Positions 1 to 42,316 of a stretch of 42,334 bases of DNA are shown in pieces. The stretch is from a virus. A program made the translations under genes and the position numbers. Location of the stretch: the IMG/VR virus record IMGVR_UViG_3300036886_000097, positions 1 to 42,334 of that record; one strand, given 5' to 3'. The number at the start of each line of letters is the position of its first letter. The first letter of the stretch is position 1. The notes beneath the pieces are model-generated. The model did no database searches and was not told where the DNA came from. It saw only the letters and a program-made list of their open reading frames with translations.

Positions 1-2100
1 CCCTCGCCAAGCCGCGTTGGTTACAGTTACGCTATCCAAAGACGCATTGACTGAGGTGTACCATTGAGGCCCGAAGCCCGGACTGTTTACTGAGTGAATC
101 TCTGAGTAGTGGCTGTTGCTGGTAGCCACGGAGAAGAAGTCGGATTCCAGCCCGTCTACTCCCCCGGAGTCCTCCAGGGCGATGGCGCGCCACACGTTGC
201 GGTAGCCGAACAATTCATACGCGCCGCACCCGGTCACACTATATCCAACGAACCGCAAGTTCTCGAATGTTGAGTCTGCCACATAACGCAGATACAGGCC
301 GCGCTGCTTGGTGGGGGTGCCCGTGTGTCCGCTTCCATCGAACGTCAAGTTGCGGATATGCACGTTCTTAACTGGCATAACCTTGAAGATTCCTGTGGAG
401 GCGCTCGCGTCGAGCGGAATCACAATCGGGTCTGAGAACCCTACTGTGTTGGTAGATTTCGACTTGATAATGCTCGTCTGGTCATACAGGTAAGTTGCGT
501 CATTGTACCTTAAAAGAACATAATCGCCTACCGTGTACGCCGCAGCACTGTCAACGTCGATAGTGGCACTGGTGGTAGTTGCACGATCTGCAAACGCACG
601 GGTCGTAGCGGGTCCGGTTTCACTCCCCGCTGAACCGTAGATGCTGAGGGCATTCACGCTCTCACCGTTCGCGGTAGGTTGCCAGAGCGTGCCCCCACCA
701 TCTAACGTGAAGTCGCCATCGGCCATTGTTAGATCAGCGGTGACTTTGTAGGTCTTGGTGAGCATGAGCGTCTTGCCCGTGCCCACCACTGCATCCAAGG
801 CGTCCTGGAGCGCACTGGTGTCATCCGTAGTGCCATCGCCCACCGCTCCGTAGGTCTCAGCCCAAACGATGTTTTGCGTATTGACGACAGGGAGGGCGGT
901 GCAATTCTCGGAAGCGCCGCTCGCGTCCACACCAAGCGGATAGTTACCAGCCGAGCAGTTAGCGCCGTTGGCGGCAAGGGCCGTCGCGGTGTCCGCTACC
1001 CCTGCCGTGCTTGCCTTACCGCTCGTATTGGCAGCATTGGCTGGGATGTCAGCCGAGACTAGGGCACGGAACGTGGGAGCCGCAGCCGCGCCCGTGGCAG
1101 GGCCACTATAGACGTAGTTCGCGGTCTGGTTGGGGATCTCCTCAAGCGTGCCGTCTGCGGTGCTCACACTCACAACTTTGTGATCGGTGGTCAAGGAAGC
1201 CGCGCCGCGTACCAGGCCCGCAGAATCGGTCAGGTCAGTAGAGGCACCCCCGCCCGTCGCATCTGCCGCGCACACCCACGCGCCCGCGCCGTTGCGCTTG
1301 ATGATTTGGTTCTCAGTGCAGGAGAGGGCGGCGATGGCGGTCAGGTCGGCGTTTCCGGGCTGATAGTCGCTCCCAGCCGATGCCGCGCTGGGGATGCCCT
1401 TGGTCATCTTGACTATCGTGGCGTCGAGCGTGCTCGGCTCGATTGCCTTCGCTCCGTCGTTGCCTACCGTCATCTGCCCCTTGCCAATAGTCGAGGGGGC
1501 CGTCACTGCGCCAGCGGTACCGCACGCCACAGAGGAACCGCCCACCAGGACGCAGTACGAGGCGGTTCCTGTGACCACGGAGGGCGCACCGCTGCTGGCC
1601 TTGATAACCCCGGTCAGTGTGCCAATCGCCAGAGTAGCGGGGGCGTACGACGATCCGCTCCATCGTAGGTATTGTCCGACCGTCGCCCCGCCCTGAGCGA
1701 TCTGGGAAAGCGCGAAGACCGAGGTTGCGGAGGGCACCGTCGCCACGGCCACGGCGTTTATCGTGGTCGGCGTGGTTCCGGTCACTACCCACGTCTGAGT
1801 CTTGGTGGTGTTTCCCCGGCTCACATAGCGAACCCCATAACTCGTGGTGGCCGGCGTGCATGTGCTGTTGGGATAGAGCGCCACGGTGAAGACGCCCGCG
1901 AGTATACTCACTACCCGCGTTTCCGGGTAGATATACACGCCGTTCGATTGCGTACAGGCGGCATTCAGCGTGATCTGCGCGACTCCGTTGAACAGCGACC
2001 CGTCCGGGTTATGAATAGTCTGCGCGACGGTGGTTTTGATGTCGGTGGCGGCGCTCAGACAGGCAGCCGCCAGAAGAAGCGCGATTATAGAACGAAGCAT
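1..2100 (-). CDS. Tailspike / pectate-lyase-fold protein with signal peptide, partial at the window edge
   Basis: An open minus-strand frame runs from ATG at 2100 to base 1 without a stop, giving at least 700 residues; the C-terminus is outside the window. The start has an AAGGGGG Shine-Dalgarno (SD) sequence 5-6 nt upstream and overlaps the preceding glycosyltransferase by 16 nt. The N-terminus (MLRSIIALLLAAACLSAA) is a typical Sec signal peptide. Residues about 25-400 are low-complexity Thr/Ala/Gly fibre-like sequence. Near residue 410 is AETYGAVGDGTTDDTSALQ, the signature that opens right-handed beta-helix tailspikes of the Pectate_lyase_3 type, followed by beta-helix-like sequence to the edge. 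The role is probably host-glycan binding or cleavage at the tail tip. The signal peptide is odd for a virion protein assembled in the cytoplasm. The fold is a firm call; the enzymatic activity is inferred. Confidence 0.82.
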   Translation of the reverse strand, partial: MLRSIIALLLAAACLSAATDIKTTVAQTIHNPDGSLFNGVAQITLNAACTQSNGVYIYPETRVVSILAGVFTVALYPNSTCTPATTSYGVRYVSRGNTTKTQTWVVTGTTPTTINAVAVATVPSATSVFALSQIAQGGATVGQYLRWSGSSYAPATLAIGTLTGVIKASSGAPSVVTGTASYCVLVGGSSVACGTAGAVTAPSTIGKGQMTVGNDGAKAIEPSTLDATIVKMTKGIPSAASAGSDYQPGNADLTAIAALSCTENQIIKRNGAGAWVCAADATGGGASTDLTDSAGLVRGAASLTTDHKVVSVSTADGTLEEIPNQTANYVYSGPATGAAAAPTFRALVSADIPANAANTSGKASTAGVADTATALAANGANCSAGNYPLGVDASGASENCTALPVVNTQNIVWAETYGAVGDGTTDDTSALQDALDAVVGTGKTLMLTKTYKVTADLTMADGDFTLDGGGTLWQPTANGESVNALSIYGSAGSETGPATTRAFADRATTTSATIDVDSAAAYTVGDYVLLRYNDATYLYDQTSIIKSKSTNTVGFSDPIVIPLDASASTGIFKVMPVKNVHIRNLTFDGSGHTGTPTKQRGLYLRYVADSTFENLRFVGYSVTGCGAYELFGYRNVWRAIALEDSGGVDGLESDFFSVATSNSHYSEIHSVNSPGFGPQWYTSVNASLDSVTVTNAAWRG

Positions 2101-2834
2101 TGTTCCCCCTTGATCCCGGCGCGTTGGCGCTTGCGTTCCTGAAGTTGCGCGACCATCTTGTGTAGCGAAAGCCGCTGTTCTTCGCCCGTCATGACCTGGT
2201 TGAAGCTGGAGGAATACTGCTTCCCGCCGTAGCCGTGCTTCACGACGGCGTCCCCGGTCACGGCCAGCGTGTACCCAGCCTCCATGGTCCGGTCGCAGTA
2301 GTCGTCATCGTCCCCGCCGTAGCCCGTGAAGGATTCATCCAGTGGGCCGACGGCCTCCAAGACCTCGCGCTTGATGTAGACGCACACAAAGCACAGCCGG
2401 GAGGTGGATTCCGCACCGTGTCCGATAGAGTAGCCGAAGCGTTGCATGGGGTTGCCCACAACACCGATGATCTGCGGCGAGACAATCCCGATGCGCGGGT
2501 AGCTGTAAGCTACGGCCTGTAGCGTTGCGATGGTCCCCGGCTTCAGAAAGGCCACGTCATCGTTGACGAGCAGGATGTCCGGCTTCACAAATGGGATGTC
2601 AGGGTTGAAAGGCGACTTCGAGGCTCTCGCAATTCCGATGTTGGCGTTGCGGGCGAACACGAAGGGCTCTACCCCTTCAACAAAAATCCAATGGGGGTCT
2701 AAACTCTGGAACTCCCCGCTGGTGACCGCGATTTGGTCGTGGTCCGGCTCGTACAGGTCCAGGGAATCCGCTAACATGCGGAATATCTCCGTGAACCGCG
2801 TCAACGTCACTATGGCTACTTCCGGCATTCGCAT
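2085..2834 (-). CDS. Family 2-type glycosyltransferase
   Basis: A 249-residue protein of GT-A fold. Visible features are the N-terminal nucleotide-binding strand (VAIVTLTRF), NDDV at residues 91-94 (DxD-type metal/nucleotide-sugar site), GPLDESF at 163-169, and the acidic GGDDDDYC at 173-180 followed by H200, which is the usual acceptor-side ED/H pattern of GT2 enzymes. It should transfer a sugar from a nucleotide donor to a glycan or protein; the acceptor is unknown. It is the last gene of a four-gene glycan block and overlaps both neighbours. ATG is at 2834, with a second ATG two codons in (2828), so the exact start is uncertain by two residues. It may modify the host surface polysaccharide or the adjacent spikes. 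Confidence 0.8.
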   Translation of the reverse strand: MRMPEVAIVTLTRFTEIFRMLADSLDLYEPDHDQIAVTSGEFQSLDPHWIFVEGVEPFVFARNANIGIARASKSPFNPDIPFVKPDILLVNDDVAFLKPGTIATLQAVAYSYPRIGIVSPQIIGVVGNPMQRFGYSIGHGAESTSRLCFVCVYIKREVLEAVGPLDESFTGYGGDDDDYCDRTMEAGYTLAVTGDAVVKHGYGGKQYSSSFNQVMTGEEQRLSLHKMVAQLQERKRQRAGIKGEQCFVL

Positions 2835-3421
2835 TCTCTCTCCAAAACGGACTTAGCTCTCACTCGCATGGCGTCGGCAAGCTGGCCGTGATCCGGTTGC
2901 TTATACAGGCGGTTGGGTGCGGTGGCCCATGGGAGATGGGTGATAGGGAAGTCCACCACCTTGACGGGATTCAGGCAGGTGAACAGGCGTCCCGCTTCCC
3001 GGCGCATCAGCGGGTCTTTCGTAAATCCCGCGTCCAGGTATCGGTTGAATGTCTTGTTGACCAGCACCTTCTCGAATACCGAACCGAAGCCCATGAGGCG
3101 ATCCGGTCTCTCCGCGTAGTTCGCCTGATACTCCCGAGGCATGTTGCAGACTATGAATCCCGGTTTCCACTGGCCGATGATGGCCTCCGGGTCGCTCACG
3201 ATCACGTCATCGTCCTGGAAGTAGACGACGGCGTTCCGTGCCTGAAGTGCCAAGTCGAACTGCCCGTACGGCCCGAGGTCCGGCAACCTAGACTCAGCCC
3301 TCTTGGCGTTGTCGCAGACCAGAACCTCGTCGAACCGGGCCGCTGCTAGGGACGAAAATATCTTGCTCATGTCCACGTCCCCACGAGTTACCAGTACTGC
3401 CGTGCAAAGTCGAGGAGTCAC
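2816..3421 (-). CDS. GT-A-like glycosyltransferase
   Basis: A 201-residue protein with an N-terminal alpha/beta half (LCTAVLVTRGD, then DEVLVCDNA) and QDDDV at residues 69-73, the DxD-like motif of GT-A glycosyltransferases. It is shorter than most GT2 enzymes and I do not recognise a specific family; the C-terminal half (HLPWATAPNRLY) resembles hydroxylase/GT proteins that carry a conserved His after the sugar-binding region. Translation starts with GTG at 3421 in a GTGA overlap with the upstream gene, so it is probably translationally coupled. It overlaps the next gene by 19 nt. Its role in the same glycan pathway as its neighbours is inferred from position. Confidence 0.65.
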   Translation of the reverse strand: MTPRLCTAVLVTRGDVDMSKIFSSLAAARFDEVLVCDNAKRAESRLPDLGPYGQFDLALQARNAVVYFQDDDVIVSDPEAIIGQWKPGFIVCNMPREYQANYAERPDRLMGFGSVFEKVLVNKTFNRYLDAGFTKDPLMRREAGRLFTCLNPVKVVDFPITHLPWATAPNRLYKQPDHGQLADAMRVRAKSVLERECECRK

Positions 3422-4158
3422 TTTTGAAGGAGTGCAGAAAAATACTTGAGAGCGGCTGCCTGGTCAACCTGAACCCCGCGCGTCTGGCCGCAGAACAGCG
3501 GGTCCAGGCCACTTCCCAGGTCGATCATGGTCCGACCCGGCTTCCTCTTCATCAACCCCGCCATAATGAGTTTGGACGCCCGGCCTGCACAGAAGATCAG
3601 GACTTCCGCAGTCGATCGGTCCAGGCGTTCAACCGCCTCTTCAGCCACTTCCCACGCGGTTGCCAGTGGGATCTCGTACAGCGAACACCTCAGCATCCGG
3701 CAAGCGCCTGAGAGCCTCGCAGGGGCCACTAGGACCTTCTCTATGGGGTCTGACCGAAGCACCTCGTAGAAGTGCCGGAGTTCCGGGCTGAGGCGGTTCG
3801 ACAGGAGCGCCTCCATGTGTACCAAAGTCGGCAACGGACCCGGCCACGGATTCACGCCGGCCAACGCTACCATCTCTTCCCACTCCGCGAAGTGCTTCTG
3901 CTCGTCGCGCGGCCCAAAGTCGCTGTACGTCTTGAAGTCGGCCACGTAGGATGTCGGCTGAGATGCCAGCGTCATCCACGCCAACCACAACCCGGCGCTC
4001 AGAGCGGGGCAATTCACTTCTCCATCGGCGGTGCGCCCGTCGCGCAGGTTGTACATGAACTGCACGTCGCCGTCACCGAATTTGGTGAATATGAACGGCT
4101 CACGCTTCTGGAGTTTGGCCGCCAGAATAGTGCAGGTTTCTTCGGCTGAAGGTGTCAT
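3418..4158 (-). CDS. Putative glycosyltransferase with GT-D-like FGDGD motif
   Basis: A 246-residue protein. The N-terminal segment FIFTKFGDGDVQFMYN resembles the R/K-x-G-D-G-E motif of DUF1792/GT-D glycosyltransferases, and the C-terminal part (AEVLIFCAGRASKLIMAG, then MIDLGSGLDPLF) has the Rossmann-like strand and D-x-G pattern of that group. The start chosen is ATG at 4158, which gives a one-base TGATG overlap with the deacetylase stop; an upstream in-frame start at 4176 would overlap more. It sits between a PIG-L deacetylase and two other glycosyltransferase-like genes. Function as a glucosyltransferase is a guess from the motif; the acceptor is unknown. Confidence 0.5.
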   Translation of the reverse strand: MTPSAEETCTILAAKLQKREPFIFTKFGDGDVQFMYNLRDGRTADGEVNCPALSAGLWLAWMTLASQPTSYVADFKTYSDFGPRDEQKHFAEWEEMVALAGVNPWPGPLPTLVHMEALLSNRLSPELRHFYEVLRSDPIEKVLVAPARLSGACRMLRCSLYEIPLATAWEVAEEAVERLDRSTAEVLIFCAGRASKLIMAGLMKRKPGRTMIDLGSGLDPLFCGQTRGVQVDQAAALKYFSALLQK

Positions 4159-4625
4159 CAGTACCAGGTCCAGCATCCAGCGGCTTCGTACGCCGCTTTG
4201 ATGGCGCGGAATATCTTCGGGTCTTTCCCGTTTACGGGGCAGTCAAACGCTTCCATGCAGGCGTTATGCACGAGGATGTGGTCGGGGTGCTGGTACTCGC
4301 CCATCGCGTTGTGCGTGGTAACTTCGTCGGCCTTGATCGCTTTCAGGAGCCTGACGACGTGATTCGCGTTGTTCTTGTGGCACCACTGCGCGTTCACGTC
4401 GTCGGCCTTGTGGAAGATCCCCGATTCGGTCACGTCCAGGCAGATGATGCGATCCTTGAGCGGGTGCGCTTCAATGGCCTTCAGCCGTGCGGGTCCGAGT
4501 CCCGGTCTGTCTGGATGGCCTGAGAACACGATGACGATGCGGTCGAAGGACTCAGGGGACCACCAGAGGGCCTCGTCATCGGGGTGAGCGCAGACTAGGA
4601 GTTTCATTGGCGGTGCTAGGGTCAT
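4158..4625 (-). CDS. PIG-L family deacetylase (GlcNAc de-N-acetylase-like)
   Basis: A 155-residue protein with the zinc-binding AHPDDE motif at residues 13-18 and the second metal/catalytic segment GEYQHPDH at 109-116, both diagnostic of the PIG-L/LmbE family. Members remove acetyl groups from N-acetylglucosamine-containing glycans or glycolipids, using Zn2+. It is shorter than the usual 200-270 residues, so it is a minimal version, but both metal motifs are intact. ATG at 4625 is used; an ATG six codons later (4607) would keep all motifs. It lies upstream of three glycosyltransferase-like genes, which fits a small pathway that builds or edits an amino-sugar glycan. The target (host envelope or virion) is not shown. 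Confidence 0.82.
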   Translation of the reverse strand: MTLAPPMKLLVCAHPDDEALWWSPESFDRIVIVFSGHPDRPGLGPARLKAIEAHPLKDRIICLDVTESGIFHKADDVNAQWCHKNNANHVVRLLKAIKADEVTTHNAMGEYQHPDHILVHNACMEAFDCPVNGKDPKIFRAIKAAYEAAGCWTWY

Positions 4626-4650
4626 GTCAGATTAGGAACGCGGAGCAGTA

Positions 4651-5229
4651 TTATAGGTACCTGATTGCTGGGTTTTGGGGTACAATAGGAGCAGGCTGGA
4701 AGGGCGTTAGAAGCGCCACTCCCAAGTTACTTCCACCATCCACGCTGTTGAATCTAGCGAACTCCCCAAATACTTCAGCGGCCTTGAGGTTGTAGGCCGT
4801 CGCCGCGTCGGCTTCCTTGACGAACAAGCCCGACCAAACTGCCTTACCATTTAGCGATACACGCGCTAGCCACTTGCCCGCACGTTTGTCCCAGCAGACG
4901 CCCCTGAAGCGCGAAGTGCCGCCCTTGGCGCAACCGTTCGCAGTGTTCATGCTCTTGTTGGCGGGGCGCAGGTTGTCACGCCGATTATTGAGGCCGTCGC
5001 CATCCTTGTGGTCCGGCATGAATCCGGGAGAGCACGGACACACCATCTGGTGAAGGTAGACGAACTTCTTCTTCCCTTCCGGCGTTCGCTCCCACCGTCC
5101 GCAGTAGACCACCGAGGTCCCGTTCTTCCGCTTAATTACGACGGCGGTCCACCTCTTCAGTGCAAGGCTGGCGTCTTCATCATCCACGAAGGCGACATAG
5201 CCGCGCTTCGTCCTGATCTCGACGCTCAT
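4651..5229 (-). CDS. HNH-AP2 homing-endonuclease-like protein
   Basis: A 192-residue protein. The HNH core is at about residues 59-88 (LHQMV, then DHKDGDGLNNRRDNLR), followed by an AP2/ERF-type DNA-binding domain at about 105-161 (SRFRGVCWDK, KWLARVSLNGK, EADAATAYN). This order is the known free-standing homing endonuclease architecture of phages. ATG at 5229 is preferred because family members begin just before the RGYVAFVDDED strand; an in-frame ATG at 5286 would add 19 residues. It interrupts the tail gene block between the GH18 gene and the glycan block and is flanked by a 240-nt non-coding stretch. Likely a mobile intruder that cuts related phages lacking it. Confidence 0.85.
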   Translation of the reverse strand: MSVEIRTKRGYVAFVDDEDASLALKRWTAVVIKRKNGTSVVYCGRWERTPEGKKKFVYLHQMVCPCSPGFMPDHKDGDGLNNRRDNLRPANKSMNTANGCAKGGTSRFRGVCWDKRAGKWLARVSLNGKAVWSGLFVKEADAATAYNLKAAEVFGEFARFNSVDGGSNLGVALLTPFQPAPIVPQNPAIRYL

Positions 5230-5375
5230 CTTGCCCGTTCCGAAACAACAGCGATTGTCTTCATGCCTCAAGTTTGCGCCCATCATTTCAACAACTCAAG
5301 GAATCAGGGAACGTAACCCCTATTACTTTTCGTTCACCAGTTCTCGGAACATCAAAGCCGACTACCACCGTTGCT

Positions 5376-5397
5376 GCCCCTCGTTTGTTTGAGGGGC
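5376..5397. other. GC-rich hairpin between GH18 and HNH-AP2 genes
   Basis: GCCCCTC (5376-5382) and GAGGGGC (5391-5397) form a perfect 7-bp stem with an 8-nt AT-rich loop. It lies in the 240-nt gap 5230-5470, the longest non-coding stretch of the left half. There is no U-tract on either strand, so it is not a standard intrinsic terminator. It may attenuate read-through or protect the mRNA end. No clear promoter was seen in the gap. Confidence 0.4.
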
Positions 5398-5470
5398 GCT
5401 TGAGGGCGGATTCGGGTTGGATTCGCTCTTTCATTTTTAGGGACACTTTGCAAAATTTAGTGTGCCTGCC

Positions 5471-6991
5471 TCATCGCAGGCCCATGCCTGATTTCAGCAG
5501 GGGGGGCTTGTCGTAGATCGCGCTAAGCAGGGGGTGCGGCTTTAGAGTTCCTGCTGTGTAATCCGCGCCGAGTTCCCAAATCATCCACCCCCCAAAACCT
5601 TGCGCAATAATATACTGGATCTTGGCTTGGATTGACTGCGGATCGTCATAGGTAAGATACCAATAAGTATTCGGCGTCGTTCCCACGTGGCTGAGATAGG
5701 GGACCAAGGCTACGGTATCCCAGTGGTACTCCTGCGTAGTAATAAGAGAGATAAGTGAATTGTAGTAGAGAGGTTGCTGCGTTGGGGCGTTTCCTGACTT
5801 CCACATTTGCCGTGGCCCACTGATACCTTGATTGTTGTCTGAATCTAAAATGCCGCCGGTCCAGCGAATCCCATAGAACGGAATACCTATCCCAAGTTTA
5901 GTAGCAGGAAGCCCCTGCGCCAGAAAATGGCCCGCGAAGGACTCGACTGAATATACGGAATTTCCGTAGATGGGGGAATTAAACCACGGATACCCATCCC
6001 AGTCCGACCCGTTCATGTCGTAGGTCATTAGGTTTACGCGGTCAAAGCTGCCATGATTCGCACCCCAATACGCATATCCCTGAGTCTGCGCTGGAGCAGC
6101 AACGGTCAACACCTTAGTCCCAAGTGCTGTACGAAGCGCCGCCGAGAATGCCGTCATGTGTACTCCGCTGGTGGCGACTGTAAATGGTTCCCAGTTGAGA
6201 TCCACCCCATCAAAATTGTAATTATTCACGACGGTCATTATGCTGCTGACCAATGTAGACAGATGCGATCCAATTGCGGTGTTCCAATTCGCCTCCGAGT
6301 CAGCCTTCAAATCCACAATCGCCATGACCTGGTGACTGTGTGCTGCTGCCACTAGAGCTGCGGCACTGGTTGAGAACTCAAGCGTTGTGAGATCCAAAGT
6401 CCCATCGGCGTTTACCAGCGTACCAACTTGGATTACGTGCGTGAGTCCGTTCCACTGTATAGCGGAGACGGGAAGATTAAACCCGTAGCCGGGGTAGTAA
6501 GAGTTGTAGTATCCCATGCTCCATTGGTTCATTGTTGATGCAGGAAGTGCAAGAGGATGCAAAGTCAAACCCGTCAAGGTATTGGTTTGCGAGTAGTCCC
6601 AAGTCGTGATAACGACGATCAGCGATGTATAAGATCCGCTGCTGAAGGTTTGAGAACACGCTTGGGGAGTACCGTTAAGGTTATATACATGGTAAGATAA
6701 AGCTGTTCCCCAGTCATCCCCGAAAATCTCTACGGTAAGCCCGGAGCTAGACGACGGGCTGGCACTGGCCATTACCTCGAAAGTGTAATTAGTGTTTGCA
6801 GAGACGGCTATAGAAGTTTGGTGCAACATTGGGTTTCCGCTGGCTGCGGTAACCCATGTCGTCGCGCCACTAGCAGAACTATCCGTTTTGTGCCAAGCAG
6901 CGTTGGTTATATCTGAGGGGCTGGTTAGAAGGTTCTGCGCTCCGCACACACTAGCTACAGCAAGGGTTATAACTACAAGTTTGGTTGGCAT
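5471..6991 (-). CDS. Secreted GH18 (chitinase/endo-beta-N-acetylglucosaminidase-like) glycosidase
   Basis: A 506-residue protein. The start at ATG 6991 gives a Sec signal peptide (MPTKLVVITLAVASVCGA); AAAGGA lies 11 nt upstream. Residues about 20-150 look like a carbohydrate-binding beta-sandwich, and residues about 155-500 are a GH18 TIM barrel: FDGVDLNWE around residues 260-268 (family motif DxxDxDxE, with the catalytic Glu near 268), MTYDMNG, GIGIPFYGIRW and the late WMIWELGAD tryptophan strand. In the motif the third Asp is Asn here, which may lower or alter activity. GH18 enzymes cleave beta-1,4 bonds next to N-acetylglucosamine by substrate-assisted catalysis. It is next to fibre/spike genes and no ordinary endolysin exists in the window, so it could be a depolymerase or the lysis enzyme. 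Confidence 0.85.
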   Translation of the reverse strand: MPTKLVVITLAVASVCGAQNLLTSPSDITNAAWHKTDSSASGATTWVTAASGNPMLHQTSIAVSANTNYTFEVMASASPSSSSGLTVEIFGDDWGTALSYHVYNLNGTPQACSQTFSSGSYTSLIVVITTWDYSQTNTLTGLTLHPLALPASTMNQWSMGYYNSYYPGYGFNLPVSAIQWNGLTHVIQVGTLVNADGTLDLTTLEFSTSAAALVAAAHSHQVMAIVDLKADSEANWNTAIGSHLSTLVSSIMTVVNNYNFDGVDLNWEPFTVATSGVHMTAFSAALRTALGTKVLTVAAPAQTQGYAYWGANHGSFDRVNLMTYDMNGSDWDGYPWFNSPIYGNSVYSVESFAGHFLAQGLPATKLGIGIPFYGIRWTGGILDSDNNQGISGPRQMWKSGNAPTQQPLYYNSLISLITTQEYHWDTVALVPYLSHVGTTPNTYWYLTYDDPQSIQAKIQYIIAQGFGGWMIWELGADYTAGTLKPHPLLSAIYDKPPLLKSGMGLR

Positions 6992-7011
6992 TTTCTTAAA
7001 TTCCTTTAGGC

Positions 7012-7890
7012 TTACTGAGCCGCAAAGGTCTTGAATCTCCACGGCCTTGACGCATTGCTTACCCACTTGGAACCGTCAAACGCCGCATTTGTTCCTGAGG
7101 TATATCCGGGCGTGTTGTTGTAGCCCGCCTGTGCGTAGTTGCTCATACTGATTGTGAAATCCCCGGCAATCACTAAAGCATAGAAACTGTTGTTCGTAAT
7201 TGCTGGCATGGTGTTGAACGAGAAGGTATAATCTGCAAAGCTGGTCGTGAGAGAATCAACGGTAATAATCCGGCTGGTAGCAAGTTTGGTAACTGGAAGG
7301 TTGGCTGCGGAAGTCCACACCTCCATCCAAAGGTTGCCACTCGGAGAACCTGTCTTCTTGAGCGCCACAAGACCTTGCGCTAGGATATAGGTGGCCGTTG
7401 CCAAAAAAGGCATACCATCTGAGGTGTTACCAGAGTTGTAGCGGATTACCTGAGCTGTGCTCGCGGAAGGAAAGTATGAATCGACGAGTCCGACAGTCAA
7501 CGTAGTGAACTGAATTGCGGTGAACTTGTAGCCCGTTTTGGAGTTCGTATCGTAGCCCGCGATGATTGGGTCGGCCCCTGCTCCGTATATTTGAAAAGTC
7601 AGATTGTTCTGCGGGATAACTAATGTTTCGGCGCTCCAGTCCCCACCCGCCTTGAAGCCGATAGAATCTCCAGAAGAGAAACTGGCTGCGTTCACTTTTG
7701 CAACTGTGGCCCATGGTAACTCTAACGTCCCTGGGTTATCGTCCGACCCAGCTACCGAATCCACGTAATAGATCGTGTTGGGACTTTGGCCGTGAACGCC
7801 CATAATCATCTGGGCTCGCGCTACCTTGGATATCAGTCCCAGTGCCGGTACCCACAATGCACCACATTTAACGAATGCGCGTCTTCTCAT
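7012..7890 (-). CDS. Beta-helix/spike-like protein with Tat-type signal
   Basis: A 292-residue protein starting at ATG 7890 with AAGGTGA just upstream. The N-terminus MRRRAFVKCGALWVPALGL followed by ISKVARA has a twin-arginine RRxFxK motif, a hydrophobic core and an ARA-type cleavage site, so it looks like a Tat signal. After it comes YYVDSVAGSDDNPGT and PWATVAKVNA, the opening of parallel beta-helix proteins (DUF1565-like). The C-terminal half (YALVIAGDF, GSKWVSNASRPWRFKTF) resembles a jelly-roll/anchor-type domain of secreted bacterial proteins. It lies between GH18 and a fibre-like gene in the same operon, each with its own signal peptide. Export of a folded protein is implied by the Tat motif; glycan binding is inferred from fold and context. 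Confidence 0.65.
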   Translation of the reverse strand: MRRRAFVKCGALWVPALGLISKVARAQMIMGVHGQSPNTIYYVDSVAGSDDNPGTLELPWATVAKVNAASFSSGDSIGFKAGGDWSAETLVIPQNNLTFQIYGAGADPIIAGYDTNSKTGYKFTAIQFTTLTVGLVDSYFPSASTAQVIRYNSGNTSDGMPFLATATYILAQGLVALKKTGSPSGNLWMEVWTSAANLPVTKLATSRIITVDSLTTSFADYTFSFNTMPAITNNSFYALVIAGDFTISMSNYAQAGYNNTPGYTSGTNAAFDGSKWVSNASRPWRFKTFAAQ

Positions 7891-21620: not shown

Positions 21621-22835
21621 TTACGCCATGTAATCGGTCACGTCATACAGCAGGCCGTGGAACTTCTCCTGCTTGATCTTGTAGCCGTATTCGGTCAAGA
21701 TCTCGTCCTTGTAGCCGTCCGCGCCGTCCTTCAGAACGTCGGGGTACATCGCGGTGTCGCGGTTGATCCCGTTGTTGTTGAGGAACACGTACCAGATCTG
21801 GTCCAGATCGACCGAGAGCGCCATGCCGCCGAAGCCGTTCTTACCGGAAACGCCGTCTTCCAGCATCCAGTCGCGCACCATGCGCCAGACGCCGTGCGGG
21901 GTCTGAACGGTCTGAATGTTCAGGCCGAACTTCTTCTCGCTGGAGGTGATCATCAGCTTGGCCGATGCCCACGCCTGGATCGCCTCGACCACAATGGGGG
22001 ACGCCAGAAGGATCTTCTCTTCCGCGCCGTACCGGAAGCACATCCGGCTGAACTGCATGAGCTTCTTCGGGGTGAGGATGCCGCCGCCGTCCAGAGTGTT
22101 GGTGCTGATGACGTTCCGGAGGCCCTGCTGGCCGCGAATCGGGTAGCCGGTCGCCCCGCCCGTGAGGTTTTCGTACTGCTGGCCCCAGAGCAGTGTAGCG
22201 TTCATCTTCTGCTTGTGCTCGACGAGCTTGTCTTTGTGCTCGCGGTCGCGGTCGCCCTGCGGGGCGCCGTAAGCCTTCGATGCCGCCGCGGTGATGGACA
22301 TGTCGCAGGCGGTCTTCTCGATGCCGAGGTAGGTGATCTTCTTGACGGGAGCGGCGGTCTTCATCGACGGGACCGAACCGTACTCCTCGTGTGCGCTGCC
22401 CAGGATGCGGATAGCGCCGTTGGCTTCGATTGCCGCAACGCCGGAGCCGCCCACATTGCGGACCACCGTCAGCACGTCCCCGGTCTTCCCGGTAATGCGG
22501 CAGATTTCGGGGGCCGCCGAAGAGGCGACTGCGGTCGGCACGCAGAACTGCTCTCCGATCACAAACAGGGTTCCGTCCGTGACCGTGACGGTCGTGGACG
22601 CGGTGGCCGCTCCAACGGCGGCAGCGCTGTTCTGCGCCCAGCGGGCGACGTAATCCGACTCGAACCACTCGACGCGGGTCGAATCGACAGCTTCGCGCTG
22701 CTTCGCTTCGTTCAGGAAGGTCAACAGCGGACCAGTGCGGGGCTCGACCCTGGAAATGTCGGCATCCACGCGCCGGACCAAACGCTCTTCAGTGATTGCG
22801 TGTCCGGTATTGCGGGGGACAATGATGTTAGCCAT
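21621..22835 (-). CDS. Major capsid protein, SU10/DUF5309 type
   Basis: A 404-residue protein of the HK97-like fold, SU10 major capsid subfamily. Diagnostic pieces are the N-terminal arm (ITEERLVRRVDADISRVEPR, GPLLTFLNEAKQREAVDSTR, VEWFESDYV), the beta-hairpin insertion (TVTDGTLFVIGEQFCVP), the spine-helix segment (DREHKDKLVEHKQKMNATLL, WGQQYE) and the P-domain end (LVRDWMLEDG... region around residues 320-340). Size fits the family. ATG 22835 is preceded by AAGGAGG in the loop of a hairpin (22841-22857). It follows the scaffold gene with a 22-nt gap. It should form the icosahedral shell. Confidence 0.85.
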   Translation of the reverse strand: MANIIVPRNTGHAITEERLVRRVDADISRVEPRTGPLLTFLNEAKQREAVDSTRVEWFESDYVARWAQNSAAAVGAATASTTVTVTDGTLFVIGEQFCVPTAVASSAAPEICRITGKTGDVLTVVRNVGGSGVAAIEANGAIRILGSAHEEYGSVPSMKTAAPVKKITYLGIEKTACDMSITAAASKAYGAPQGDRDREHKDKLVEHKQKMNATLLWGQQYENLTGGATGYPIRGQQGLRNVISTNTLDGGGILTPKKLMQFSRMCFRYGAEEKILLASPIVVEAIQAWASAKLMITSSEKKFGLNIQTVQTPHGVWRMVRDWMLEDGVSGKNGFGGMALSVDLDQIWYVFLNNNGINRDTAMYPDVLKDGADGYKDEILTEYGYKIKQEKFHGLLYDVTDYMA

Positions 22836-29653: not shown

Positions 29654-30381
29654 GCCGCCTCCGGACCGAATTTAGGCCACACCACCGGCCGTGCGCTGGC
29701 GCAAAGGTCCTCGAAGAAGCCCGGCCCTGCGCTCGACAGCAAAATCAGGTGCTTGCAGAGTGTTGCTACGGCCACGTTGTACGCTTCTTCTCCCCGGTCC
29801 ATCCAGGCGATCTCATCCAGGATGACGATGGTGGGGTGCTTCGACCGAATCTTGTCGGGGTCTCCAGGAATTGCCATGAAAGACGACCCGTGAGCGGTAG
29901 TGAATTCGTGGTCCGGCTGCTTTTCCAGCGCCTTTTCGAGCGGCCAGTGCTGCCGCAGCAGCGGGTCGCTGTTTTTCCACAACTCCTTGGCGTATCCGAC
30001 GCAAGTAAGCGCGGTGTCCTCGTCCCGGCTCTGCACTACCGCCAGAATCGCCGGGTTACAGAGGACCTGGTGGGTCGCCCAGGCCGTCACGACCCAGGAC
30101 AGCATCATAGTCCGGCTCTTCTTAATGCCCTTGACCGGGTTCGGCTCGTACCGGAGATAGTTCAGCACCAGCCGCAGGTATTCCTTGTTCGGGAACGGAC
30201 GGTACGGCTCTCTGCTTTGCTCGTCTTTTGTTTTGGTGCATTCCGTCATCCAGAAGAAGGGGTCGCGCAGTGCCAGGTTTGCCTTGAGCAGATCCCTCCG
30301 CTGCGCCAATTCCTGCAACTGCTTCTGGGCCAAGCTGGCTGGCAAGGCGTTCGATGCTACCACGGAGGGCGGCGTACTCAT
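29650..30381 (-). CDS. terL: Terminase large subunit, ATPase half (split gene)
   Basis: A 243-residue protein covering only the N-terminal ATPase of a large terminase. Residues 30-60 (LKANLALRDPFFWMTECTKT) are the usual start. KSRTMMLSW at about 88-96 is the deviant Walker A, TIVILDEIAWM at 184-194 is Walker B with catalytic DE, and SSAGPG at 216-221 is the coupling motif. The protein stops about 22 residues later, exactly before the linker to the nuclease. ATG 30381 is the start; it overlaps the small-subunit candidate by 260 nt. The nuclease half lies at 27749-28696. ATP hydrolysis drives DNA into the head through the portal; the two halves presumably act as a complex. Confidence 0.85.
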   Translation of the reverse strand: MSTPPSVVASNALPASLAQKQLQELAQRRDLLKANLALRDPFFWMTECTKTKDEQSREPYRPFPNKEYLRLVLNYLRYEPNPVKGIKKSRTMMLSWVVTAWATHQVLCNPAILAVVQSRDEDTALTCVGYAKELWKNSDPLLRQHWPLEKALEKQPDHEFTTAHGSSFMAIPGDPDKIRSKHPTIVILDEIAWMDRGEEAYNVAVATLCKHLILLSSAGPGFFEDLCASARPVVWPKFGPEAA

Positions 30382-35698: not shown

Positions 35699-37567
35699 AT
35701 GACCACCAACCAAATGCAACCCGCAGTCGGACAGACGGAACACGCAGCAACCTACAGCCCGGAAGATAACAAACTCCGGCTTTATCCCGCGTGCCGGCTG
35801 GATCCTGACGAATACGCCAAGATGAAGGCGGCCGGCTTCTCGTGGGCGCCGAAGCAAGAACTATTCGTCGCGCCGGTGTGGACGCCGACCCGCGAAGACC
35901 TACTTGTCGAGATGTGCGGCGAGATCGGCGACGAAGACACGAGCCTCGTTGACCGATCCGAACAGCGCGCGGAACGCTTTGCGGACTACAGCGACAATCG
36001 CCGGGCCGACGCCGAGCGGTCCCACGAGGCGGTTAGCGCCATCGTGGATGGCATCCCAATGGGACAGCCGATCCTGATAGGGCACCACTCCGAGAAGCAC
36101 GCGCGCAAGGATGCCGAGAAGATTCAGAACGGAATGCGGCGCGCCGTGAAGATGTGGGAGCAGGCGAACTACTGGAAGTCGCGGGCGGCCGTTGCTATCC
36201 GCGCGGCGAAGTACAAGGAACTTCCAGCGGTTCGGGCGCGACGGATCAAAGGGATCGAAGCGGACATCAGATCGTATCGGGCCAGCTACACGCCGCATGA
36301 CAACCAGCCTGCGATCATGCAAACCCGGTGGAACGCAGAGAAAGACGCGCCGGCGATTCCCCACGTTTGGGTTGGGCCGAAGGGCCGCGGCGGGCATTGG
36401 GTGCCGCTGGAGGACCTGCCACGCATCGAAGCGGGGGCGCAGCGATGGTTGGAGCACCTTCAGAACCGCCTGGAGTACGAGCGGGCGATGCTGGCCGAGG
36501 GCGGAGGGTTGGCGGCGGATGGGTTTGACATTCAGATCGGCGGGCGGGTGTTCGACGGCGGGAGTTGGCTCGTCGTCACCAAGCTGAACCGCAAAGACGG
36601 CGCACTTTTCAGTGTGTCCGTGTTGGGCCGCTGGTCTGCCACTCTGCCGGTCGAGCAGGTCCGAGATTACAAACCGCCGGAGGCGGGAGACGCTGAGAAG
36701 GTCGCGGCGGTTTCCAAACTCGCCCCGCTGTGCAACTTCCGTGCCGAGGGCTGCATTGAGTTGACCTCGGAGGAGTGGAAGCGCAAGCAACGGATTTCTG
36801 ATAGCTACTTCGTCCACACGTTCAAAGCGACCGAAACGACGGGCGCCTACCGACTGCGGACGGCGCACGGACCGAACTGGTCGCGGCTGCCGGTGTTCCT
36901 GACCGACGCGAAGGTCGTAGAGGCTCCCGCTCTGAAGCCCGCGCCCGAACCGGTTGCGTTCGCGCCGATCAAAGATGCACGCGAGTGGAAAGCCTACCAG
37001 CCACCTGAGCCTACCAAGTTCGACGCACTGCGCGAGACGCTCAAGGCTGGCGTGCAGGTGGTGACGGCGGATCAGTTATTCCCGACACCGCCAGACCTGG
37101 CAGCGCGGATGGTGGAAGCGGCGGACATCCAGAACGGAGACCGAGTACTCGAGCCCAGCGCGGGGACGGGGAATATTGCGCGCGCGGTTTTCACCGCGGC
37201 TCCCGTGCACGTTGTCGCCGTTGAGATCAACCGCGATGTTTTGAACGCTTTCGAGGCACAGTATCACTCATGGAACAATAGCCGAATCGAGACGCACTGC
37301 GCCGACTTCCTGGCCTGTAACGACAACCTCGGAAAGTTCGACCGCATCTTGATGAATCCACCTTTCAGCGACGGCGCCGACGTCAAGCACATTCGGCACG
37401 CGCTCACGTTCCTGAAGCCTGGCGGGCGGCTGGTGGCGATCTGCGCCAACGGACCGCGGCAGCGCGAGGCGCTCATGGGGCTGGGAACCTGGGAAGACCT
37501 GCCGGCCGGCACGTTCAAGGCGTCTGGAACCGGAGTAAATGCGGCTATGCTGATTGTGAATGCTTGA
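35699..37567 (+). CDS. DUF3560 protein fused to a SAM-dependent methyltransferase
   Basis: A 622-residue protein. Residues about 10-220 (LRLYPACRLDPDEYAKMKAA, FSWAPKQELFVAP, HHSEKHARKDAEKIQNGMRR) are DUF3560, a domain found in plasmids and phages. Residues about 456-622 are a methyltransferase: PTPPDLAARMV, DRVLEPSAGTGNIARAV (SAM site, about 480-496), VVAVEINRDVLNAF and NPPF at about 552-555, the catalytic motif of N6-adenine or N4-cytosine type DNA methylases. ATG 35699 has GAGG about 10 nt upstream. It may methylate phage DNA against restriction, or host DNA. It is in an operon with the recombinase. Confidence 0.85.
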   Translation: MTTNQMQPAVGQTEHAATYSPEDNKLRLYPACRLDPDEYAKMKAAGFSWAPKQELFVAPVWTPTREDLLVEMCGEIGDEDTSLVDRSEQRAERFADYSDNRRADAERSHEAVSAIVDGIPMGQPILIGHHSEKHARKDAEKIQNGMRRAVKMWEQANYWKSRAAVAIRAAKYKELPAVRARRIKGIEADIRSYRASYTPHDNQPAIMQTRWNAEKDAPAIPHVWVGPKGRGGHWVPLEDLPRIEAGAQRWLEHLQNRLEYERAMLAEGGGLAADGFDIQIGGRVFDGGSWLVVTKLNRKDGALFSVSVLGRWSATLPVEQVRDYKPPEAGDAEKVAAVSKLAPLCNFRAEGCIELTSEEWKRKQRISDSYFVHTFKATETTGAYRLRTAHGPNWSRLPVFLTDAKVVEAPALKPAPEPVAFAPIKDAREWKAYQPPEPTKFDALRETLKAGVQVVTADQLFPTPPDLAARMVEAADIQNGDRVLEPSAGTGNIARAVFTAAPVHVVAVEINRDVLNAFEAQYHSWNNSRIETHCADFLACNDNLGKFDRILMNPPFSDGADVKHIRHALTFLKPGGRLVAICANGPRQREALMGLGTWEDLPAGTFKASGTGVNAAMLIVNA

Positions 37568-37639: not shown

Positions 37640-38044
37640 ATGGAAACCAAACAGACAACGAAATACACACCAGGGCCGTGGAAGTTAGACGGCGGGGAAG
37701 GCACGCGCGGGCAGTTGTACGTGTGGTCTGACCGCGATGAGCGCGGCAAGGGTCTCATCGGTACTCACGAAATCTGTGTGGCTATCATCCAACCCAACGC
37801 ACGATGTGAGGGTAGCGCGGCCTACGCGGAAGAGGAGATCAAAGCCAACGCCGATCTAATCGCAGCCGCGCCTGCAATGTATGAGGCGCTGGAAGCGGTA
37901 GTGCAAACCATCTGGGCCGATTGCCGAATACCAGCCGAGGTCCGCAAGGACTGGGAGTCGGTGTATCATACCGTGATTCTGTCCGCAATGAGAGCCGCGC
38001 GTGGAGATAAGTTAGATGTTGCCAGCAATCGTACAAACCGATAG
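37640..38044 (+). CDS. Small conserved phage protein with TPGPW motif
   Basis: A 134-residue protein from ATG 37640 behind AAAGGGAG. TPGPWKL near the N-terminus and EEIKANADLIAAAPAMYEAL in the middle are the known signature of a small, widespread phage protein family of unknown function. The C-terminal 40 residues are helical. It overlaps the recombinase start by 29 nt. The role in phage biology is not known; it is often found next to early genes. Confidence 0.75.
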   Translation: METKQTTKYTPGPWKLDGGEGTRGQLYVWSDRDERGKGLIGTHEICVAIIQPNARCEGSAAYAEEEIKANADLIAAAPAMYEALEAVVQTIWADCRIPAEVRKDWESVYHTVILSAMRAARGDKLDVASNRTNR

Positions 38045-38921
38045 CCTCCTCCCCCTCGTGCGCCTGGTGACGGACTCAGTTACCAGCCCGCACAGCAGAC
38101 GGGCATACAGCCGGGCCCTGACATCGTACCTGACATGGCATCGCGCCACGGGGCAGGGGGGATTCTGCAGGGCCTCAGTGCAGGCGTACCGGACGTACAT
38201 GGAGGGCTTGGGGAACCGGCCCCCCTCGCTCAATCAGGCGCTCTCGGCAATCCGCAAGCTCGCCAGCGAGGCAGCCGAGGCGGGTCTGCTCGATGAGGGC
38301 ACGGTCGCCAGCATCCAGCGGCTCAAGGGTCCGCCGCAGCGGGGCCACCGCGCGGGCCAGTGGCTCACGCTACCCCAGGCGCGGGTACTGTTGGCGGCTC
38401 CCGATGCCAGCACGCTCAAGGGCTTGCGTGATCGCGCATTGTTGGGTTTGCTGCTGGGCTGCGGGTTGAGACGGGGTGACATAACAGGGCTACATGCAAC
38501 TCAGTTGCAAGAGCGAGAGGGGCGGCTCTGCCTGGTGGACCTGACCAGGAAGGGCGGCCGAATCCAAACCATCCCCATGCCCGAGGGTGTCGCCGACGCT
38601 GTACTCGCGTGGATGGACCGCGCAGCTATAGCTGCCGGGTGTGTATTCCGGGAGGTCGACAAGGACGGGCGGCTCTCAGGGGATCGGCTGTCCGGGGCTG
38701 GAATCTGGTACATCGTCCGGGAGTACGGCGCGCGGATTGGGATGCCGGAACTCGCGCCCCACGATTTGCGGCGCACGTGTGCGGGGCTGGCTTTGAAGGG
38801 TGGCGCGACTTTACGCAAAATCCAGCAAATGATGGGGCATGGAAGCCAGGGCACCACCGAGATTTATCTTGAAAACATCATGGACTTACAAGACCCCGCC
38901 TGCGATCACCTGGGAGTGTGA
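38016..38921 (+). CDS. int: Tyrosine recombinase / integrase
   Basis: A 301-residue protein. The N-terminal SAM-like core-binding region is residues about 15-100 (SPHSRRAYSRALTSYLTWHR). The catalytic domain shows GLRRGDITGL (R at about 152), K at about 179 (TRKGGRI), HDLRRT (H249, R252), MGHGSQGTTEIYL (H275) and Tyr284 as nucleophile, so all five key residues are present. It can join phage and bacterial att sites or resolve dimers. ATG 38016 is preceded by GGAGA. It is the last gene of the operon from 35438 and ends 40 bp before a convergent minus gene. The gene contains a 21-bp palindrome-like element (38490-38510) shared with 34075-34095. Confidence 0.92.
   Translation: MLPAIVQTDSLLPLVRLVTDSVTSPHSRRAYSRALTSYLTWHRATGQGGFCRASVQAYRTYMEGLGNRPPSLNQALSAIRKLASEAAEAGLLDEGTVASIQRLKGPPQRGHRAGQWLTLPQARVLLAAPDASTLKGLRDRALLGLLLGCGLRRGDITGLHATQLQEREGRLCLVDLTRKGGRIQTIPMPEGVADAVLAWMDRAAIAAGCVFREVDKDGRLSGDRLSGAGIWYIVREYGARIGMPELAPHDLRRTCAGLALKGGATLRKIQQMMGHGSQGTTEIYLENIMDLQDPACDHLGV
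38490..38510. repeat. Palindromic element in the integrase gene (copy 2)
   Basis: CTACATGCAACTCAGTTGCA plus A. It is the reverse complement, with one mismatch, of the sequence at 34075-34095. The core is a perfect 15-nt palindrome. Position inside a coding region means the sequence is also under protein constraint (HATQLQ). Confidence 0.45.
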
Positions 38922-40801: not shown

Positions 40802-41115
40802 TAGAGCTCCCTCGCTTTCCGCAGAGCGTCCACGGCGGCATCCACCTGCATGATTGTGCCCTTGCAGTCGCGTGCTTTCTCCGCCGCGTCGAGTACTGCT
40901 TCCTTGCAGGCGGAGACGGCATCGGCCTTCTGCTTAGCCTGCTCTTCTGCGGCCCACTTTGCCCGCCATTCCACTAGTTCTTTCGCTCCACGATCTGGAT
41001 GATGCAGCTTGCAAAACCCTTCCGTGATTGCGTTACGCGGGCAAGGCGATTGGTCGTAATGCCACTTGTCGCCCTTTGTGATCGTGCCCTTGCACTTCAC
41101 TTTCGCTTCTTTCAC
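40801..41115 (-). CDS. Small Cys/Lys-rich helical protein (104 aa)
   Basis: A 104-residue protein with GTG 41115 in a GTGA overlap. The N-terminus (KVKCKGTITKGDKWHYDQSP, then CPRNAITEGFCKLHHPD) has a C/C/C/H-H arrangement consistent with a zinc site, and the rest is an Ala/Lys helix (AAEEQAKQKADAVSACKEAV). Function unknown; position next to the replication proteins suggests DNA metabolism. Confidence 0.55.
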   Translation of the reverse strand: MKEAKVKCKGTITKGDKWHYDQSPCPRNAITEGFCKLHHPDRGAKELVEWRAKWAAEEQAKQKADAVSACKEAVLDAAEKARDCKGTIMQVDAAVDALRKAREL

Positions 41116-41513
41116 ATCGCCCTCCTCTCCAACAGCGCCTCAATCCTGTCCAGCCGCTCGGCAAGAGCCAGGTTGCTGATCCCTAACGGGCTCGGGTCTT
41201 GCTTCTCGCGCTCAGCCAGCCGAATGCGGATCTTGTCCACGCGCACGGCGACCTCGGGGATTCGCATCTGCTCCAGGCCGATCTTTATCCCGTACTGAAT
41301 GCTCGTATAATGCTTGCCTGCGTAGAATTGCCCAATCCTGCGCATTGAATATCGCGCGCCCACAACTCCTCGCACCTCGCGCGACAAAACGTACGCGATT
41401 CTTCGCGGCGCCACGACCTCGCTCATGTTCGATTTCTGCCGAATGGCGTTGGGCGTGATGCCGAATTCCTCCGCTACCGCGGCGGCGATCTCGGCCAGGG
41501 AAGGGGGCCTCAT
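41112..41513 (-). CDS. DnaA domain IV-like DNA-binding protein
   Basis: A 133-residue protein. ATG 41513 overlaps the upstream gene by ATGA and begins at MRPPSLAEIAAAV, the normal start of DnaA domain IV. The helix-turn-helix (SEVVAPRRIAYVLSREVRG) and IGQFYAGKHYTSIQYGIKIG align with IGxxFGGRDHTTVxxA of DnaA, which reads DnaA boxes. Here R is K, D is H and H is Y, so specificity may differ. There is no AAA+ ATPase. The last 40 residues are a coiled-coil-like tail (LALAERLDRIEALLERR). It could recruit host DnaA-box DNA, compete with it or help the initiator encoded just upstream. Confidence 0.8.
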   Translation of the reverse strand: MRPPSLAEIAAAVAEEFGITPNAIRQKSNMSEVVAPRRIAYVLSREVRGVVGARYSMRRIGQFYAGKHYTSIQYGIKIGLEQMRIPEVAVRVDKIRIRLAEREKQDPSPLGISNLALAERLDRIEALLERRAM

Positions 41514-42316
41514 GCCGCACCGCCGGACATCGTGACGACCTTCGCCAGTCCAGGCCGCGCCGGGTGCAGGAGTTTCGCAATCATCGGCGGGAACCATCCC
41601 CAAGACTGCGACGGCAGACCCTTGGACTTGTGAAGTTCCCGGAGCGTCTGACCGATTAGCGGCAGGCTGGCCTCCCCGCCAGCGTCAAGGCATTGCCGAC
41701 AGAGTTCGTCGTCAGGTAGGCCCCATACCTGAACTTGCCGAGCCTCCGGGCCGCCCATGTAGCCGATCAGGCTGTCTCGCATCCAGGCGATCCGATTTCC
41801 CGGCACCTCCGAGCTTTGGTTCTCTCCCTCGGGGAGTTTTAGCGGCGGCAGTTCTCCCGACTCCGACGCTCGACTATCGACTACGACTCCGCATTCGACT
41901 ACGACGCGCGGCTGCGCGCGCGAGGCGGGCAGAGGACCGTCATCTGACCGGCATATGACCGTCATATGACCGTCAGGAGATGGGCATTTACTGTGCTCTG
42001 CTCGAACTCGTTGCTTGAAGTTATTGATTTGCAAGTACTTCTTTCCGTTCTCACATTGATAAACTGTGACGAGGGGATGACCGTCATCTAAAAGCGTTTG
42101 ACTGACCTCTGACAGCCATCTGACCGTCATCTGACCGTCAATTTCGGTGAGGCGGCGGGGGAAACACTTCACCCGGAGTAGCTCCGGGTCCGCTTCGTAC
42201 CTCCCGTAGTCGTCCACGATGGACATCAGGCACCGGTAGAACAGTTCGGCGCCGATCGAAAGGCAGGCAATCGCCCGGCTATCAATAATTCCGTCTCTAA
42301 GAATTCGACTTGGCAT
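41510..42316 (-). CDS. Replication-initiator-like protein with winged-helix N-terminus
   Basis: A 268-residue protein. The N-terminal 105 residues (IDSRAIACLSIGAELFYRCL, IVDDYGRYEADPELLRVKCF) match the winged-helix domain at the start of many phage replication organisers (lambda O/DnaD-like). The middle is low-complexity, and the C-terminal 90 residues are helical (IAWMRDSLIGYMGGPEARQV). Inside the coding sequence (41935-42143) lie phased 11-bp repeats flanking an AT-richer stretch, exactly as lambda's origin lies within O. It likely binds those repeats to start replication and then loads a helicase. It is coupled to the DnaA-like gene by ATGA. The start ATG 42316 is 18 nt from the window edge. 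Confidence 0.7.
   Translation of the reverse strand: MPSRILRDGIIDSRAIACLSIGAELFYRCLMSIVDDYGRYEADPELLRVKCFPRRLTEIDGQMTVRWLSEVSQTLLDDGHPLVTVYQCENGKKYLQINNFKQRVRAEHSKCPSPDGHMTVICRSDDGPLPASRAQPRVVVECGVVVDSRASESGELPPLKLPEGENQSSEVPGNRIAWMRDSLIGYMGGPEARQVQVWGLPDDELCRQCLDAGGEASLPLIGQTLRELHKSKGLPSQSWGWFPPMIAKLLHPARPGLAKVVTMSGGAA
41935..42143. repeat. Phased 11-bp direct repeats (iteron-like) flanking an AT-richer segment: candidate origin
   Basis: Cluster A has four back-to-back units at 41935, 41946, 41957 and 41968 (GACCGTCATCT, GACCGGCATAT, GACCGTCATAT, GACCGTCAGGA). Cluster B has a unit at 42079 and contiguous units at 42100 (degenerate), 42111, 42122 and 42133 (GACCGTCATCT twice in exact or near-exact form). 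About 100 bp of lower GC lies between the clusters (41979-42078). The 11-bp period is one helical turn and is not a multiple of three, so the repeat is maintained at DNA level and not for the protein. This resembles an initiator-gene-embedded phage origin. Confidence 0.7.

Follow-up and report, generated by a model that had tools for sequence, protein, structure and literature searches.

A putative replication origin with phased iterons and a hexamer array inside the initiator gene of a tailed phage

Background

The question raised by this locus is whether short phased repeats that lie inside a gene resembling a replication initiator form the origin of the phage that carries them and, if they do, which DNA elements such an origin would consist of. 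The window, by which we mean the whole stretch of DNA that was analysed, is the entire IMG/VR record IMGVR_UViG_3300036886_000097 of 42,334 bases, and a gene for an SU10-type major capsid protein (window 21621-22835, 2.6e-32) marks it as the record of a tailed phage. Elsewhere in the window a gene for a methyltransferase domain fused to DUF3560 (35699-37567, 1.4e-34) adjoins one for a tyrosine integrase (38016-38921), and near the tail region there is a carbohydrate-related gene cluster (2085-7066) with galactosyltransferase-like, PIG-L deacetylase, HNH/AP2 homing-type and GH18 glycosyl hydrolase members.

Origins inside initiator genes are already established for phages and plasmids (PMC6316719, PMC3155836, PMC5703833). 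In Bacillus phage SPP1, oriL, made up of direct repeats and an unwinding region, lies in gene 38, which codes for the origin-binding protein (PMC6316719), and in the RepA_N plasmids pSK41 and pAD1 the initiator has a winged-helix N-terminal domain and the origin boxes are central in the rep gene (PMC5703833, PMC3155836). An initial annotation of the window had called the locus an undescribed initiation module, which is too strong since the general layout is known; what is new, as far as the literature searched goes, is a second element, a hexamer array, which was absent from that account. No account of a hexamer element in the origins of phages was found in this literature, subscription reviews being outside its scope, and an earlier description is possible.

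Results and discussion

The initiator gene and its protein

The gene is on the complementary strand at 41510-42316, contains the putative origin and encodes a protein of 268 aa. When compared with PHROGs, this protein matched phrog_5810 (4e-12), phrog_2149 (1e-9) and phrog_1408 (2e-9), all of which are named 'replication initiation protein'. In Pfam no family was found at E-values up to 1, so that a match to RepA_N (PF06970) is absent, and the N-terminal domain has no match to Phage_rep_O and no sequence match to lambda O. A structure model built from an alignment of 42 sequences has a winged helix at the N-terminus that is predicted with confidence (pLDDT >90 across most of residues 11-100), followed by a disordered region and by a C-terminal part that is helical at lower certainty. 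The winged-helix domain, which covers approximately residues 1-110 and is encoded at 41987-42316 on the complementary strand, is the conserved part of the family and presumably the iteron-binding domain. A Foldseek search of the PDB with the model gave nothing significant (best E 0.1). VIA-align returned winged-helix neighbours in the PDB with Z up to 7.9, including 4pql and 4pt7, and at Z <8 this shows the common winged-helix arrangement only. The titles of these two entries say just 'N-Terminal domain of DNA binding protein' and 'Structure of initiator', and we take both to be the N-terminal domain of a staphylococcal plasmid Rep. The PHROGs families and the model bear out the claim of the initial annotation that the repeats lie inside a winged-helix initiator-like gene, and together with the DnaB-like helicase that adjoins the gene in relatives they agree with the initiator of a layout of the lambda O type.

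Iterons in the window

The repeats had been described as two clusters of GACCGTCATCT-type units, with strong enrichment at this locus alone as the expectation. When up to two mismatches were allowed, 28 matches to GACCGTCATCT were found in the window compared to 12.4 +/- 3.4 in shuffled sequence, where none of 100 shuffles reached 28, and 11 of the 28 fall in 41931-42143. The core TGACSGTCA is even more restricted, as it has five sites in the whole 42-kb record, all within 41956-42140, and the enrichment at the locus is thereby confirmed. Cluster 1, on the 5' side of the gene (42079-42143), has units at 42079, 42100, 42111, 42122 and 42133, and cluster 2 (41935-41978) has four units at 41935, 41946, 41957 and 41968. 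The spacing of exactly 11 bp that had been reported holds in both runs of four units but not for the unit at 42079, which is isolated and off the 11-bp grid, 21 bp ahead of the 42100-42133 run.

The gene was compared with 2000 synonymously recoded versions of itself. Five copies of TGACGGTCA were observed where the recodings had a mean of 0.4 and a maximum of 3, and the self-match at 11 bp was 27 of 33 positions, which the recodings never equalled (maximum 25). The iteron repeats are therefore selected at the DNA level, as had been argued from their spacing, and phased iterons kept as DNA within the gene are what the lambda O type of layout has. Between the clusters there is a low-GC segment (41975-42071) with 42% GC compared to 51-68% in the rest of the gene, so that the clusters do flank a lower-GC stretch, which is a candidate unwinding region. 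In relatives this dip is mild (49-53% GC) and is absent in GC3, and we therefore rejected a conserved low GC between iteron clusters; with so shallow a dip in relatives, the low GC in the window is likely to be partly protein composition. A perfect 9-bp palindrome also failed as a general definition of the iterons (118 found versus 80 expected), and the excess is partly due to one word, CCGACTCGG, located in the conserved N-terminal domain. The GC-skew inflection that had been expected near 42 kb was not clearly seen, and since the linear record stops at the gene, GC skew cannot decide the position of the origin.

Phased repeats in relatives

Relatives of the initiator were found at 169 viral loci, of which 80 were kept, with period and array statistics on 74 non-redundant genes, and 10 further relatives were found in bacterial genome contigs, including those of Variovorax and Paraburkholderia. 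Most of the identity among relatives lies in the first 115-130 residues, and directly after the N-terminal domain nearly all of them have phased repeats, the letters of which vary between phages (TGACGGTCA, TGCTAAGCA, ATGCCCGCGCG, TGCCNGGCA and others). DNA repeats are thus kept in the same place where the protein is conserved, as the initial reading would have it, although their letters differ. In the 74 genes the leading period before the array is 11 bp (z>3 in 33 genes), followed by 22, 10 and 20, and the codon-multiple periods 9, 12 and 15 give almost no signal. The relative L010/L051 has a second repeat cluster upstream as in the window. Some relatives share an O-like C-terminal part, and one of them, L031, matches O-like PHROGs only C-terminally.

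A hexamer array after the iterons

An imperfect hexamer array is found at 41856-41906 on the complementary strand of the window, where the coding strand reads CGTAGT-CGAATG-CGGAGT-CGTAGT-CGATAGT... with two 7-bp steps. It is short and 68% GC, and its score of 12 was reached by none of 200 codon shuffles and none of 200 synonymous recodings. The position of the array is conserved in relatives, most of which have a tandem (CGNAKN)n directly 3' of the iterons on the coding strand, for example CTTAGACGTAGTCGAAGACGAAGACGATAA. Scored as CGNAxx, the array beats codon shuffles in 65 of the 74 genes and synonymous recoding in 58, and 16 members do not beat synonymous recoding when scored for exactly this motif. 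A period-6 self-match of at least 22/30 was found in 41 of the 74 initiators compared to none of 277 further long ORFs at these loci. When all viral contigs were scanned blind with an array pattern of 22 bases, 44 stretches matched; 35 of them belong to the initiator family, lie on the same strand throughout and directly follow the iterons. The looser pattern (CGNAGN)5 was unspecific, most of its matches being CCGTAG-type arrays in unrelated genes. The array is inverted relative to the initiator gene in the initiator genes L143 and L161 and in L276-L294. In L101 (4001-5173) and its near-twin L102 an additional stretch of about 100 residues that looks nuclease-like by eye is inserted between the N-terminal domain and the array, which is retained at nt 761 compared to the usual position near 385.

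It is conceivable, but we consider it unlikely, that the array is a repeat prone to slippage, coding for a flexible interdomain linker and without function as DNA. The array does lie within the part of the protein that is predicted to be disordered, some arrays are perfect repeats, and in pSK41 the origin codes for a linker peptide that is dispensable (PMC5703833), with which the free choice of reading frame of the array would fit. What argues against a linker is that, of 65 genes, 52 have the C of the hexamer at codon position 3, 12 at position 2 and one at position 1, so that the peptides are wholly different by frame (DVVEDEDD, SETESETE, SRSRKRSR) while the DNA motif stays constant. Most arrays are imperfect, with CG and A conserved and the other bases variable, which plain slippage would not yield, and the 58 arrays that exceed synonymous recoding stand against it as well. 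When arrays were defined by CG alone, without use of the fourth base, that base was A in 83% of 365 hexamers. The codons on the even beats of the arrays have the same bias, as valine is GTA in 84 of 89 cases compared to 16% outside arrays and glycine is GGA in 89 of 100 compared to 19% outside, and single arrays alternate between GTC and GTA or between GGC and GGA, which a linker would not explain. The hexamer array is thus kept at the DNA level, and the bias for A at the fourth base, the valine and glycine codon bias and the presence of arrays in other initiator families all argue that it is selected as DNA.

By nearest-neighbour means the stability of the duplex in the array is average (-1.49 kcal per step compared to -1.50 in the part encoding the N-terminal domain), and a classical A+T-rich thermodynamic unwinding element was therefore rejected, as the array is no weaker than its surroundings. 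If the array acts in opening, it should act by its sequence, since its duplex is not weak. We also considered DnaG primase sites, as one strand often shows CTN at 6-nt intervals. CTG, however, is avoided (C as the third base in 3%), and such sites were rejected as a general explanation.

Arrays in other initiator families

Among the blind-scan matches outside the family, three (L267, L236 and L245) are initiator-like proteins that belong to other PHROGs families, and iteron-like repeats precede their arrays. A search with the L236 protein matched only itself, and tblastn with the L277-family initiator gave no match in a named phage. In relatives of the L245 protein, repeats resembling TGCTACTAGCA precede (CCGTCT)n, which is the same array on the other strand. 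In the more distant initiator-like L301, L299 and L296 the arrays are (ACAGAT)n or of the AGAGAA type, and in the O gene of Erwinia phage PEp14 ACAGAG repeats come after the iterons. The rep gene of the Lactococcus phage Tuc2009, which is annotated as containing the origin, resembles the window in that 11-bp-phased iterons, CAACCAAATGN, are followed by a short-period array. This array is of the GGATA/GGTTA type (L304:3485-3557) with a 25/30 match at period 5, and since 5 is not a codon multiple it looks like a DNA element. Tuc2009 differs from the window in this period of 5 and in that its protein belongs to another PHROGs family, that of a DnaD-like helicase loader. In 80alpha ORF20, for which a putative origin is annotated, iterons are followed by AAT triplets at the place of the array, and in lambda O by an A-rich stretch. 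The place of the element is thus constant across these initiators and its period is 6, 5, 3 or loose.

The N-terminal domain of lambda O binds the iterons and the C-terminal part recruits the helicase machinery. The comparison with the lambda origin within O that the initial annotation had drawn is apt, as in both cases the iterons come just after the winged-helix part and are followed by a distinct short element on the coding strand; lambda differs in having 18-bp iterons and an A-rich element where the window has units of 11 bp and a hexamer array whose stability is average. RepA_N plasmids share with the window the winged-helix N-terminal domain and the central origin in the initiator gene, but they are Firmicutes plasmids and the window protein does not match RepA_N in Pfam. 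To our knowledge no hexamer array of this type occurs in RepA_N plasmids. When the window is set against the published description of SPP1 oriL, the latter differs in its A+T-rich unwinding element.

The region as a probable replication origin

The matches to initiator families, the iteron core that is unique in the record, the recoding tests, the phased repeats in 74 relatives and the adjoining DnaB-like helicases suggest that this region is very probably the replication origin of the phage, placed inside its own initiator gene and with the iterons and the hexamer array as its cis elements. The same order of elements in Tuc2009 rep, lambda O and 80alpha ORF20 also argues for it. Origin function is assigned by way of relatives and of analogues in which the origin has been mapped or annotated, and a role for the array is inferred only.

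Initiators of plasmids and phages often autoregulate, and the iterons could on this ground be an autoregulatory or partition-type site, used for repression of the gene itself or for segregation, with the real origin elsewhere. We regard this as improbable, because the repeats are 170-385 bp inside the coding region, away from a promoter position, and because repeats and array are found together in dozens of relatives in the layout of the annotated Tuc2009 and 80alpha origins.

Next to the initiator gene, at 41112-41513 on the complementary strand, is the gene for the free-standing DnaA domain IV protein (PF08299, 2.5e-11), the ORF of which as listed starts at 41603 with TTG and the probable ATG of which is at 41513. 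Since this gene appears to overlap the stop codon of the initiator gene, the two are probably co-translated. The sample of neighbours comprised 65 proteins, the window's own and 64 from relatives, each encoded by the first or second ORF downstream. A DnaB helicase C-terminal domain was found in 26 of them and PF08299 in one, the window's own. The domain that had been reported is thus real but it is not a conserved partner, and as judged from one or two downstream ORFs per locus the DnaA-like protein is not part of the conserved module. That the locus is a DnaA-like origin, with this neighbour as the main or required DNA-binding factor, is very improbable, as the domain is absent from the relatives' sampled ORFs, the iterons do not look like DnaA boxes, and the DnaA boxes that such an origin would have are absent near the site, TTWTNCACA being found in the record only at 29973 and 32933, no more than chance (1.0 expected).

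At an origin inside the initiator gene, the winged-helix domain would bind the iterons, which at about one per helical turn lie on one face of the DNA, and the assembled complex would open the DNA beside the iterons and bring in the replicative helicase. This helicase would be of the DnaB type, encoded by the phage next door in many relatives and presumably supplied by the host for the phage of the window. The hexamer array would be a second cis element that is read as DNA in a sequence-specific manner, and we propose that it is a strand-opening or helicase-loading element, to one strand of which the initiator, a loader or the helicase would most likely bind, setting the place and direction of opening or loading. 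The inversion of the array in some relatives strains such a strand-directed model more than anything else. For the window, the first melting is likelier in the low-GC segment between the clusters than in the short and GC-rich array.

Short elements of which one strand is bound are known from other origins. The DnaA-trio of oriC consists of short repeats beside duplex sites, the single strand of which is bound by the initiator and which are needed for activity (PMC10797057), and in RK2 the initiator likewise binds one strand of the 13-mers, which are required for activity (PMC4081077). The candidate array differs from these in its 6-nt steps, in not being A+T-rich and in lying within a coding region. 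By this analogy we suggest, tentatively and at somewhat less than even odds, that the array may be an unrecognised origin element common to several phage initiator families, that is, a counterpart of the DnaA-trio with 6-nt steps and no A+T-richness, one strand of which would be bound so as to direct strand opening or helicase loading, and which would be conserved at the DNA level in any reading frame.

Conclusions

The array is a clean case of one DNA signal that overlaps coding sequence in each of the three reading frames. If it is functional, origins would be recognisable directly from the sequence, uncultured phages included, by iterons and a short-period array in an initiator gene, and the array would provide a concrete target for how initiators that have no AAA+ domain open GC-rich DNA.
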